Source of the DNA: Halieaceae bacterium
Lineage (GTDB): Bacteria > Pseudomonadota > Gammaproteobacteria > Pseudomonadales > Halieaceae
Reading direction: 5' to 3'
Length of the DNA stretch: 56,411 nucleotides
Assembly (NCBI GenBank): GCA_902613175.1
Contig: CACMGJ010000013.1
Span: forward strand, 1-56,411
Made by a program: the position numbers and the translations under genes. The notes under the pieces were generated by a model. It did not search any database. It saw only the letters and a list, made by a program, of their open reading frames with translations, and was not told where the DNA came from. Below are positions 29,724 to 35,793 of the stretch, one piece after another. Position 1 is the first letter of the stretch. Each line of letters opens with the position of its first letter.

Positions 29724-31439
29724 TTGAGCTTGGATACGGACAGCCTGGTAAAGCTTCATGAGACCGTTAATGGCCCTATGTATCTGTTGGAAACCGATAC
29801 AGTCATCTGTGAAAGCCTTCGTACGACGGGCGATTACGCGCCTGACGAAAAAGCACTGCTTGGCCCTCTAATCGCTAGTGGCGACACGATTCTCGATGTG
29901 GGGGCTAATGTAGGTAACCACACGTTGTTCTTTTCTCAGTGCGTGGGCCCCGAGGGGCGAGTGCTGAGTTTTGAGCCACAACGATTTCTCTTTAAGATTC
30001 TGTGTGCCAATGCCTTGCTGGGACGTTATCAAAATGTATGGCCTTATCGCTTCGCTGTGGGAGATGAGGAGGGGAAGGTCGATATACCGGTTCCCAACTA
30101 CGAACGGCCGAATAACTTTGGTGGATACTCGCTTTCATTCGATACTTTTAAGGAAGAGGGTGACATCACAACGATCGACGCCATTGCGCCAGATCAGTGT
30201 CACCTCATCAAAATTGACGTAGAGGGTATGGAGTTGTCGGTACTCAAAGGCGCCGTCGAGACCATAGCTCGTACTCGACCCTTTTTGTATTTCGAATACA
30301 ACCGACCTGAATTTAAAGAGGAAATTCTTCGATTTTCGGTCGATCAGCTTCAATATCGCTTATATCGTCACGGGCAGAATGTTGTAGGCCATCATGCGGA
30401 TGAGACACCGCCGGAAGCCGTTGCAAACTTAACTGAAGTAACGCCAAAAGCGACGCCAAAGTCGGTTAAAACCCTGAAATCTTCAGGAAAAATCTTCGTT
30501 TCGATTGCCTGTTTTTGCGATCCCGATGTTGTGGATACGGTAAAGGATTGTTTCGACAAGGCGGTTAGTCCCGCTCGCGTAGAGATAGGGGTTTGCCTTC
30601 AGGCCAAGCCAAACGATGCGTCTTACGACGCGCTGAACGACATTGCGCGAGTAACGGTAGATCGTATCGATATTACCGAAGCGCGGGGACCTATTTATGC
30701 GCGAGCTCGGTGCGAAGCGCTGATGACCGACCCTAATTATTTCTTGCAAATCGATTGTCACTCGCGATTTTTTCCCGGCTGGGACGAGATTTTAATTCAA
30801 GAGTTCGCTAAAGCATCGGCGCTCAATGAGAACGCTGTCTTGTCGCACTATCCAATGAACATTAAAAATATGGCGTCATCCGATCACCTCGATCGCATCG
30901 GCCACGTGAATCGTTATCGATATATCGAAGCGGATGCGATCAAGAGTCACGGCTCATTGATTAAGTTACCGGAGGTGCCGGCTACGTCGCTCGGTATAAG
31001 CGCCGCGATGCTGTTTATGCGGGCAAAAGATCGCAGGCGTTTTCCTTACGACCCGGAACTTGATTTCGGCTTACATGCTGCAGAGCAAGTGTTGTACGCC
31101 GTGCGCCTCTGGACTCATGGCTTTGACATCTTTTGTCCCACACAGCATGCGCTGGCAACAGACTATGAGGGATCGCGTGATCGAATTCCCGATGAGGTCA
31201 AGCGCATCAGCAATGCAAATCGCACTGGCTGGCCTGAAGCCACGTGGTCGAAGGTGAAATGCTTGCTGGGTCTGGACGACATTGAGCAGGTCGATCCCGT
31301 CTACGGCGATTCTCTGGAGGAAAGTATGGGGCGCTTCGGTGTGGGCGATGAGCGGTCGCTGCGAGCTTACTATGAGTTTGCAGGGATACATGATGACCTA
31401 AAGCGCGTCTTCCCAAACTACCGGTACGCTGAAGATTAA
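29724..31439 (+). CDS. Fusion of FkbM-type methyltransferase and GT60-type GlcNAc-transferase
   Basis: This 571-residue two-domain enzyme has an FkbM-family methyltransferase at residues about 10-220 (DVGANVGNHTLFF at 59-71, LSFEPQRFLF, and IKIDVEGMELSVLKG near 163). From about 256 to 500 it has a GlcNAc-transferase of the GT60/PF11397 type (KIFVSIACFCDPDVVDT, EARGPIYARARCEAL, LQIDCHSRFFPGWDE with the metal-binding D-x-H). Eukaryotic GT60 enzymes add GlcNAc to hydroxyproline of Skp1. The fusion suggests a glycan that is also O-methylated. It begins at TTG, 5 bp after the GST stop; an ATG at 29778 is an alternative. It is convergent with a 2OG oxygenase gene, overlapping by 4 bp at the stops. 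Confidence 0.82.
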   Translation: MSLDTDSLVKLHETVNGPMYLLETDTVICESLRTTGDYAPDEKALLGPLIASGDTILDVGANVGNHTLFFSQCVGPEGRVLSFEPQRFLFKILCANALLGRYQNVWPYRFAVGDEEGKVDIPVPNYERPNNFGGYSLSFDTFKEEGDITTIDAIAPDQCHLIKIDVEGMELSVLKGAVETIARTRPFLYFEYNRPEFKEEILRFSVDQLQYRLYRHGQNVVGHHADETPPEAVANLTEVTPKATPKSVKTLKSSGKIFVSIACFCDPDVVDTVKDCFDKAVSPARVEIGVCLQAKPNDASYDALNDIARVTVDRIDITEARGPIYARARCEALMTDPNYFLQIDCHSRFFPGWDEILIQEFAKASALNENAVLSHYPMNIKNMASSDHLDRIGHVNRYRYIEADAIKSHGSLIKLPEVPATSLGISAAMLFMRAKDRRRFPYDPELDFGLHAAEQVLYAVRLWTHGFDIFCPTQHALATDYEGSRDRIPDEVKRISNANRTGWPEATWSKVKCLLGLDDIEQVDPVYGDSLEESMGRFGVGDERSLRAYYEFAGIHDDLKRVFPNYRYAED

Positions 31440-32455
31440 GTGGGTATCAAACTGTTGAGTGTTAAGCCCGCGACGTTTCGCTTCACTTTGAAGCGATATC
31501 GCTCACTGCCTTCTTTTTCGCTGGCCTCGGCCTCACCAAAAAAGAAGCTGATGATAACGTAGCGATTCCCTGAGCCGATTTCATTGACCTGATGGAAAAG
31601 CGATCCCGGAAAAATGACAGCGCAGTATTTGGCTACGCTCAGAACCTGTGAGTTGTATTCCGGGAACGCAATGCCACCCCCTTCATAATCATCATTCAAA
31701 ACCAGGGTCATCGCGTACCGGCGATGAAGGTGAGGAAAGATGGTGTCGCGATGCTTCCCAAACTTGCCGCGATTCTCTCCAGCGTATTTGCAGATTTTGT
31801 AGGTCTCGCGATGGGTGATTTCAGAGTAAAAAACCTTTTCAATCTCGGGTAACACGGACTTACTCAATTTGTCGTCGAGACGTTTTTCCAAATCGGTCGA
31901 TGGGTGAATATGGAGTCGTCGTTTGAAGTCTTTGTCTGCGACAAATCCCTCGTCCTGGTGTGCGTCGATATACTCGATAAGATCTTCTGCGAGTGCCTCA
32001 TCGATTGCATTGTTGATCACTAGCACTGGGGCGGGTGATTCAGTGCCAGGTAAAGTAAAGCCCGCTAGCTCCTCCTGCAGTTCCTCAAGGGTTTGCGCGT
32101 CAATGAAGTCAACAATCTTCAAATTACTGTCGGTGATGAAGGCACTGATGGGCGCAAGCTCGTGCTGAAAGAGGTGACAAAACTCGGCCGAGTGGAACCA
32201 GCGGCCATGCTCAATGTCGATTGCTGAAGGGGTGAACACAAAGTGTCTAAAAGGCAGGCGCAGCTGTAACGCGCCTGCGGTTAGTTGTAGACGACTATCC
32301 TTGAGAAACAACAGGATATTGGGCTCACCCGCTTTCCCTTGAACATCAAAAACCCTCTCGCATGTGTTTATGTAGGCATAGGGAACGTAGTCGCCAGTCG
32401 ACATTCGGGTGCTATAATCGATTGTGGGGTCTTGAGAGGGTGTTATGAGCTTCAT
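31436..32455 (-). CDS. 2OG-Fe(II) oxygenase (prolyl-4-hydroxylase-like) with N-terminal thioredoxin-fold domain
   Basis: This 339-residue protein has a C-terminal P4Hc-type oxygenase: HRD (HxD iron ligands, about 233-235), LFHQV (distal His, about 288) and NRYVIISFFFG (2OG-binding Arg, about 298). The segment GGGIAFPEYNSQVL lies between. Such enzymes hydroxylate prolines in proteins. Residues 15-130 look like a thioredoxin/peroxiredoxin-fold domain (GDYVPYAYINTCERVF, NILLFLKDSR), but no peroxidatic Cys is at the expected turn, so it is probably a binding module. The start at MKLITPSQDP (32455) suits the domain; the frame to 32779 would cross the divergent dehalogenase start. Its 3' end overlaps the GT60 fusion gene by 4 bp. 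Confidence 0.85.
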   Translation of the reverse strand: MKLITPSQDPTIDYSTRMSTGDYVPYAYINTCERVFDVQGKAGEPNILLFLKDSRLQLTAGALQLRLPFRHFVFTPSAIDIEHGRWFHSAEFCHLFQHELAPISAFITDSNLKIVDFIDAQTLEELQEELAGFTLPGTESPAPVLVINNAIDEALAEDLIEYIDAHQDEGFVADKDFKRRLHIHPSTDLEKRLDDKLSKSVLPEIEKVFYSEITHRETYKICKYAGENRGKFGKHRDTIFPHLHRRYAMTLVLNDDYEGGGIAFPEYNSQVLSVAKYCAVIFPGSLFHQVNEIGSGNRYVIISFFFGEAEASEKEGSERYRFKVKRNVAGLTLNSLIPT

Positions 32456-35124: not shown

Positions 35125-35248
35125 TGGCTAATTATTCTCGTGAGAGCAAAACTTAGACCGAGGTGTTAATTCTTTAGCTTTTTCGGGGCATATGACTTTT
35201 CACCTTCGCGACAGTTCCGCCGCTCGCATGTGTAGCATTTATTGTTCG

Positions 35249-35683
35249 TCAGAAGGTGTCATCCAATTCAAGTTCCCCGAACCGCTGCAAGCGCGAGGTG
35301 AGAACCGCGGCTTGTCGATATTTGACTGCTTGCTAGTAAACAGGATCGGTCACCATCTCAAGGAAGGCCCCCGCATTTGGATAACGGGCGATGAATACCT
35401 GATCCCAGGATTCGTCACTGGGTCCAATGACTGTCGATTCGAAATTGCCACGCCAGACAATCGAGCCGCCTACTCGGGAAAAGATGGGCTCACTGTCAGC
35501 CCCATAGTTGGCGTAAGCCTCGGCGCCGGTCATGGGGGTGCTTGCTAGCGGATGACCCTTCTCATAACGCGCTTGATCATAAAATTTGAGCTTGTTGAGC
35601 ATGAGGATAGGCGTTGTCCTGTCCAGCGCCGTAAACGCATCGAAATTAACTCTGGAGGGGTCGACGTACTGCTCATCGAACAT
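35249..35683 (-). pseudogene. DUF1330-family gene interrupted by an in-frame amber codon
   Basis: The translation from 35683 runs 116 residues in the DUF1330 pattern (MFDEQYVDPSRVNFDAF, FIARYPNAGAFLEMVTDPVY) and hits TAG at 35333-35335. The same frame continues for 27 codons (QAVKYRQAAVLTSRLQRFGE...) to TGA at 35249-35251. That continuation matches the normal DUF1330 C-terminus, which usually has a Gln near this point. A CAG to TAG change would explain it. TAG is used as an ordinary stop elsewhere in the window, so truncation, not recoding, is the simplest view. The open frame on the opposite strand (35192-35548) is its shadow. Confidence 0.75.
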
Positions 35684-35793
35684 GGTTTTTTGGCTCCGAA
35701 GGTATCCACGCGTGGTAACCTTACGCGGTCATGTCGGGCGAGACTAGGTCTCAGCCCGTTTGTTGCAAAACTTGTCGTTAGAGGGACGTGCGT

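Follow-up and report, generated by a model that had tools for sequence, protein, structure and literature searches.

Two convergent genes in the genome of a Halieaceae bacterium raise the question of whether bacteria, too, hydroxylate a protein and then attach a sugar to the new hydroxyl group. The window, by which we mean the whole stretch analyzed (56,411 nucleotides of contig CACMGJ010000013.1, assembly GCA_902613175.1), encodes at positions 29724 to 32455 a 2-oxoglutarate (2OG)/Fe(II) oxygenase and a glycosyltransferase of family GT60 that is fused to an FkbM methyltransferase. In Dictyostelium and Toxoplasma, the Skp1 PhyA/Gnt1 pathway likewise combines a 2OG hydroxylase, there a prolyl 4-hydroxylase, with a GT60 enzyme, an N-acetylglucosaminyltransferase that acts after it; Skp1 is a eukaryotic protein. 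A first-pass annotation, made from the sequence alone, had proposed that a prolyl 4-hydroxylase (P4H)-like oxygenase, a sugar transferase, and a methyl-capping enzyme act here one after another.

We favor, at a probability of about one half, the reading that the two genes form a two-enzyme module for protein (or peptide) modification, in which hydroxylation, most likely of proline, is followed by glycosylation with an N-acetylhexosamine (HexNAc)-type sugar that is sometimes methyl-capped. The oxygenase would use O2, Fe(II), and 2OG to hydroxylate a side chain, most likely that of proline, in its target protein, and its thioredoxin-like N-terminal domain would probably aid target recognition. 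The GT60 enzyme would then move a HexNAc-type sugar from a nucleotide sugar onto the new hydroxyl, and in some strains the fused FkbM domain would O-methylate the product, most simply the sugar. The order of the steps, the residue, the sugar, and the protein nature of the target are what we infer here. The features of the pair, numbered along the window, are as follows.

29724 to 31439, forward strand: coding sequence of the FkbM-GT60 fusion, 571 aa, TTG start
29895 to 30332, forward strand: FkbM methyltransferase domain, residues 58-203 (PF05050, 2.5e-18; TIGR01444, 3.5e-25)
30492 to 31394, forward strand: GT60 domain (PF11397), matched in two stretches (Pfam match, 2.7e-44)
30753 to 30761, forward strand: DxH motif of the GT60 domain, Asp-Cys-His, residues 344-346 (alignment)
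31436 to 32455, reverse strand: coding sequence of the 2OG/Fe(II) oxygenase with a degenerate peroxiredoxin-like N-terminal domain, 339 aa
32051 to 32404, reverse strand: thioredoxin/peroxiredoxin-like N-terminal domain of the oxygenase, approximately residues 18-135, without a conserved cysteine (AhpC-TSA matches of homologues, family profile, alignment)
31490 to 32029, reverse strand: 2OG oxygenase (double-stranded beta-helix) domain, approximately residues 143-322 (alignment, fold, profile)
31745 to 31753, reverse strand: HRD iron-binding motif, residues 235-237 (alignments)
31592 to 31594, reverse strand: distal iron-binding His288 (alignments)
31562 to 31564, reverse strand: 2OG-binding Arg298 (alignments)
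31436 to 31439, no strand: TTAA, the 4-bp overlap of both convergent stop codons (reading of the open reading frames)

This arrangement agrees with the first-pass description, which had the two genes as convergent neighbors with stop codons overlapping by 4 bp and had named the GT60 motifs ARGPIYAR and LQIDCHSRF, both present in the 571-aa open reading frame (ORF), as well as the fusion to FkbM. The scores are well above the model cut-offs for GT60 (PF11397, 152.5 bits; cut-off, 21) and for FkbM (PF05050, 67.2 bits; cut-off, 22.7; TIGR01444, 89.1 bits; cut-off, 37.7).

Conservation of the pair within and beyond the genus

The search covered 97 relatives; counting the window's own genome, 57 of these belong to the genus. 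Many of these genomes are incomplete, and that of the window (1.9 Mb, fragmented) is 58.6% complete. A full-length oxygenase was found in 12 of the 57 genus genomes, and in all 12 a convergent GT60 gene lies beside it, with a haloalkane dehalogenase-like gene on the other side of the oxygenase. A thirteenth genus genome, G047, has a GT60 that runs to the contig end, and nine genomes carry oxygenases 73-95% identical to that of the window. The first-pass annotation had staked its proposal on the two genes staying together in related genomes, and they do so throughout these 12 as well as in two distant ones described below. The genes that adjoin the pair are a different matter: a glutathione S-transferase (GST)-like or DUF1993 neighbor is missing in some relatives, and we rejected both as parts of the module. 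In G019, the same two flanking genes enclose a different cassette (L059:935-8984) in place of the pair, with a TPR protein, a 341-aa protein of unknown type, a 2OG oxygenase, an AMP-ligase/carrier protein (972 aa), a weak O-FucT match, and a cupin_8/JmjC protein; the chromosomal site may be a hotspot of exchange.

Use of the oxygenase alignment as a query against the GTDB species genomes gave 17 loci; nine of these (L109-L117) were taken as genus genomes already examined, L117 alone being re-scanned. Two distant gammaproteobacterial genomes, L118 (the same as L079/G411) and L119, have the intact convergent pair in other surroundings, with proteins 46-55% identical to those of the window. A third locus (L122:5959-7761), whose surroundings resemble those of L118, holds a decayed pair, consisting of a shortened oxygenase and a GT60 gene with an in-frame stop. 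In another lineage, the activities are joined: L124 (G813) encodes a single 963-aa chain composed of GT60, the redoxin-2OG unit, and a second 2OG domain, which is nearest to the prolyl 4-hydroxylase alpha-2 chain (7zsc, 1.7e-8), and G871 (L213) has the same triple fusion. The pairing exceeds what chance would give, because it is found again in different genomic surroundings and within single chains. Beside the L119 pair, and divergent from its oxygenase gene, lies a gene (L119:536-2398) for an exported-looking 620-aa protein with PPPGGTTT repeats, a single case that we note as a lead to a possible substrate. A viral origin of the pair was rejected, as a scan of viral contigs with the oxygenase and GT60 alignments found no relative of either.

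The FkbM domain is an optional part of the pair. The N-terminus of GT60 can be read in 12 genus genomes; the domain is fused to GT60 in five (G000, G008, G031, G036, and G054), absent in six (G001, G006, G014, G018, G020, and G047), and both present and absent in one, G017, where GT60 genes with and without it lie on two contigs; in G045, GT60 is an 86-aa piece at a contig end from which the FkbM state cannot be judged. On the GT60 tree this state changed at least four times, and likewise on the oxygenase tree (12 labeled rows, G017 unlabeled, branch support mostly weak). This excludes a fixed three-step module, so the capping step of the first-pass annotation does not stand as a regular one. 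Methyl capping stays plausible, because 19 of the 25 further GT60 proteins that were scanned have a match to a class I methyltransferase domain (E <= 0.01; some below the Pfam cut-off).

Purifying selection seems to act on both genes, to judge from dN/dS values (ratios of nonsynonymous to synonymous substitution rates) of 0.05-0.18 in the nine codon comparisons that gave a finite dS (1.5 in one case); two comparisons with G008 were saturated. The oxygenase frame can be extended to 447 aa, but relatives begin at the same Met as the 339-aa frame, and the longer frame is for this reason probably not the gene. On the other side, the GST-like gene stops 5 bp upstream of the TTG start of the FkbM-GT60 coding sequence. 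Farther downstream in the window, positions 35192-35788 hold short ORFs only; several relatives have a 144-aa gene there, which in some is accompanied by a 372-375-aa gene, on the strand opposite the gmhA-like gene.

The two enzymes and their bacterial relatives

The residues that the first-pass annotation had picked out as an HRD motif, a distal histidine, and a 2OG-binding arginine (H235-R-D237, H288, and R298) are borne out by alignment: the whole HRD triplet, H288, and R298 are invariant in 13 aligned oxygenases and in 12 divergent family members, which gives the HxD/His/Arg set of 2OG oxygenases. The window oxygenase has no Pfam match at E <= 0.1, and its match to the NCBIfam model of Fe2+-dependent dioxygenases (PKHD-like) is below threshold (37.2 bits; cut-off, 143). 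Its homologues match PF13640 above the cut-off; their matches to AhpC-TSA are weak and exceed the cut-off in L123 only. Over the N-terminal part, the family profile matches the solved peroxiredoxin 3drn (2.2e-4), and an alignment of 12 members has no invariant or nearly invariant cysteine column there that could supply the catalytic cysteine of peroxiredoxins. Lacking a conserved cysteine, this part probably serves for recognition or has a structural role.

Compared with solved structures, the family profile scores best with the PKHD enzyme PiuC (5.2e-9), followed by LH3 (1.6e-8), P4H of Bacillus anthracis (3.2e-7), and mimivirus L230 (2.3e-6). The AlphaFold model of the oxygenase (mean predicted local distance difference test score [pLDDT], 74.5) was matched by Foldseek to PHD2 first, with a PKHD enzyme, a viral prolyl hydroxylase, and LH3 (seventh in the ranking) close behind, and with PHD1 and B. 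anthracis P4H also among the matches. Because these fold and profile relatives are of this kind, the oxygenase is most probably a protein hydroxylase, for which proline and lysine both remain as the residue. On the "P4H-like" label of the first-pass annotation, fold and profile diverge: the fold favors PHD2, the profile PiuC and LH3.

The DxH motif of the GT60 domain is kept in all 30 aligned bacterial rows (13 of the module type and 17 others), and in the window it reads DCH. The structure model of this protein is poor (mean pLDDT, 52), too poor for the modeling of an acceptor groove; its best Foldseek matches are polypeptide N-acetylgalactosamine (GalNAc)-transferases at a low TM-score, and a profile of the module-type GT60 found no PDB chain at E <= 1.

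GT60 is rare in the order. PF11397 was detected in 5/390 genomes of the order, in 28/398 genomes of the phylum (own genome included in both counts), and in 8/235 genomes of the phylum to which L124 belongs (centre genome included), two of these at only E 3e-4. A Pfam scan covered 25 of the 33 GT60 places in the phylum sample besides that of the window, the remainder being incomplete, not retrieved, or missed in gene calling. Two of these 25 proteins have a 2OG domain match in the same chain at E <= 0.01. One, G743, is a P4H-GT60-TTL fusion whose P4H part matches prolyl-4 hydroxylase structures (2jig, 9.3e-33; 3gze, 9.5e-33), and the other, G452, is a GT60 with a C-terminal 2OG match below the Pfam cut-off (24.6 of 27 bits). 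In G053, which belongs to the window's genus, one same-strand cluster (L058:4549-15413) contains two GT60s, a 2OG enzyme, two PqqD-bearing proteins, a methyltransferase, a DUF5672-sulfotransferase protein, and a weak O-FucT match; it looks like a peptide- or protein-tailoring locus. The sole solved relatives of its 2OG enzyme at E <= 0.1 are 6t8m (2.7e-8) and 4iw3 (3.7e-4), given in an excerpt of PMC7864055 as DdPhyA and the prolyl hydroxylase PPHD, respectively. The association of GT60 with a hydroxylase, which the first-pass annotation had seen in a single locus, occurs elsewhere in bacteria as the G743 fusion, as the second 2OG domain of L124, and as the G053 cluster with its PhyA relative.

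Other GT60 genes keep different company. Seven loci (L138, L139, L141, L142, L147, L153, and L154) have a GT60-methyltransferase gene beside OEP-SPOR genes, mostly together with HlyD and double-ABC genes, in a type I secretion-like arrangement that was assigned by Pfam for the neighbors of L138 and by BLAST clusters for the other six; a glycosylated secreted protein is possible at such loci. At L128:2457-11078 (G481), GT60 lies among the type VI secretion genes TssF, TssG, and ImpA_N, a fimbrial-type protein, and an OmpA protein, and at L156:5112-7078 and L152:4045-6672 it adjoins or is fused with a tubulin-tyrosine ligase-like domain. Since GT60s cluster with PqqD proteins and a PhyA-like enzyme, with HlyD/OEP/ABC genes, or with type VI secretion genes, polypeptide acceptors are favored.

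Acceptor, residue, and competing explanations

Several observations weigh against a proline-directed module of protein modification. By profile, the oxygenase is nearer to PKHD enzymes and lysyl hydroxylases than to prolyl hydroxylases. A 2OG domain is fused to or near GT60 in only 3/28 GT60 genomes of the phylum sample, own genome included (G569 was not fetched, and many stretches are cut by contig ends). GT60 is absent from the stretch and from the whole genome of the oxygenase relatives at L120, L121, L123, and L125, and in the cyanobacterial L120 and L121 the oxygenase shares its chain with an SGNH (GDSL-type) domain. Members of the wider redoxin-2OG family are common in the phylum, and GT60 was found in 0/18 of the family's loci, which were retrieved with flanks of 1.5 kb and run through an imperfect gene caller (in L162, L163, L173, and L176 it picked another frame instead of the oxygenase). 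Likewise, G019, G068, and G093 have oxygenases 34-36% identical to that of the window and no GT60 in the genome. In the GT60 domain, a histidine in an LYH/LWH motif is kept in 15 of the 17 other rows; every one of the 13 module rows, as well as L156, has Thr in its place, and L152 has Gln. We take this histidine, by analogy to GT27, to be the third metal ligand, and its presence is not a curated criterion of the family. After the GalNAc-transferases, the next Foldseek matches of GT60 include GtrB, RmlT, PcManGT, chondroitin polymerase, and other GT-A enzymes. Finally, no target or precursor protein has been identified for the pair, and no search for an acceptor protein was made. Together, the 18 loci and the genomes without GT60 exclude a one-to-one link between the whole oxygenase family and GT60. 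As the wider family is mostly free of GT60 while distant pairs and fusions exist, the link belongs to one oxygenase clade, and GT60 has separately joined other 2OG hydroxylases.

Some of these observations would fit enzymes that tailor a small molecule, a lipid, or a carrier-bound peptide rather than a protein, an explanation that we consider unlikely. The oxygenase-SGNH gene of L121 is directly downstream of a polyketide synthase KR-ACP gene, the related oxygenase of G019 lies beside the AMP-ligase/carrier protein at the same chromosomal site as the pair, and a sulfotransferase-family gene is found approximately 3-6 kb downstream in the window, where other ORFs are presumably gmhA/gmhB-like and O-antigen ligase-like. 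What speaks for a protein instead is that the nearest solved relatives of the oxygenase, PiuC set aside, are protein hydroxylases and that GT60, rare as it is in the order, elsewhere lies near secretion-system or PqqD genes. In addition, GT60 enzymes are described in an excerpt of PMC8724618 as polypeptide alpha-N-acetylglucosamine (GlcNAc)-transferases.

Somewhat less likely again is that the two-step logic holds with lysine (or another residue) as the site of hydroxylation, after the manner of the collagen lysyl hydroxylase/glycosyltransferase LH3. LH3 precedes B. anthracis P4H in the profile scores given above, with L230 following both; the oxygenase shares a YEGGG motif with LH3 in the alignment; and its His-to-Arg spacing of 10 equals that of PiuC and, as we assume, that of LH3. 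Against this reading, the profile does not single out lysine, because PiuC scores best; Foldseek ranks PHD2 first; and clear prolyl 4-hydroxylases occur in fusion or in one cluster with some GT60s of other bacterial loci.

It is improbable, and slightly more so than the lysine variant, that both enzymes modify the same protein or pathway with GT60 acting on Ser/Thr and the hydroxylation being a separate event. GT60 enzymes of Trypanosoma cruzi are linked to mucin-type O-glycosylation in the excerpt of PMC8724618, and 23 of the 25 scanned bacterial GT60 proteins have no 2OG match in the chain at E <= 0.01. Against it stands the fact that precisely these two activities are tightly paired and have repeatedly become fused. 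That the genes are chance neighbors with no functional link is scarcely credible: within the genus the arrangement may have been inherited once at one site, but the pair in other chromosomal contexts and above all the fusions already contradict it.

Relation to known systems and biological meaning

If hydroxylation and glycosylation are coupled as we propose, the closest parallel is the Skp1 pathway, and co-inheritance or fusion of a hydroxylase with GT60 is what we see in all 12 genus genomes and in the pairs and fusions elsewhere. This suggests that the pair is a bacterial form of a Skp1-type hydroxylate-then-glycosylate pathway. It differs from the Skp1 pathway in being bacterial, in its redoxin-2OG oxygenase, which is nearer to PKHD and LH3 by profile, and in the optional FkbM domain. 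LH3 (PLOD3) follows a similar logic, and by its oxygenase domain it ranks with the nearest relatives of solved structure; its glycosyltransferase domains, unlike that of the window, are presumably not of the PF11397 kind. PPHD, which acts on EF-Tu, and B. anthracis P4H are bacterial prolyl hydroxylases, the latter among both the fold and the profile matches, that are only distantly related in sequence and for which we know of no glycosyltransferase partner. The PKHD-type enzymes PiuC and Sbal_3634 are the best profile relatives of the oxygenase domain but lack the peroxiredoxin-like N-terminus (chains of 225-243 residues), and to our knowledge they have no GT60 partner. The fusions of GT60 with class I methyltransferases in other bacteria parallel FkbM-GT60 and differ from it in that the methyltransferase is C-terminal and belongs to other Pfam families, with some of them in HlyD/OEP/ABC neighborhoods.

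No title or abstract on a bacterial GT60 paired with a hydroxylase was found in a literature search that left most subscription journals and all preprints outside its reach. In the excerpt of PMC8724618, glycosylation of cell proteins on hydroxyproline is reported for eukaryotes.

More tentatively, and as a possibility that we would not press, bacteria may have their own O2-dependent protein O-glycosylation on hydroxyproline (or hydroxylysine), put together on several occasions by combining GT60 with 2OG hydroxylases, and methyl-capped in some lineages; the protist Skp1 PhyA-Gnt1 pathway might derive from such a system, which in marine bacteria could serve as an O2-responsive switch or as a coat on surface or secreted proteins. 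The presence of the pair in 12 of 57 genus genomes and the presence or absence of FkbM among them make comparative proteomics feasible. If our reading is true, the pair would be a minimal two-gene bacterial system for testing how hydroxylation is coupled to glycosylation, and it would bear on the origin of the Skp1 oxygen-sensing pathway.

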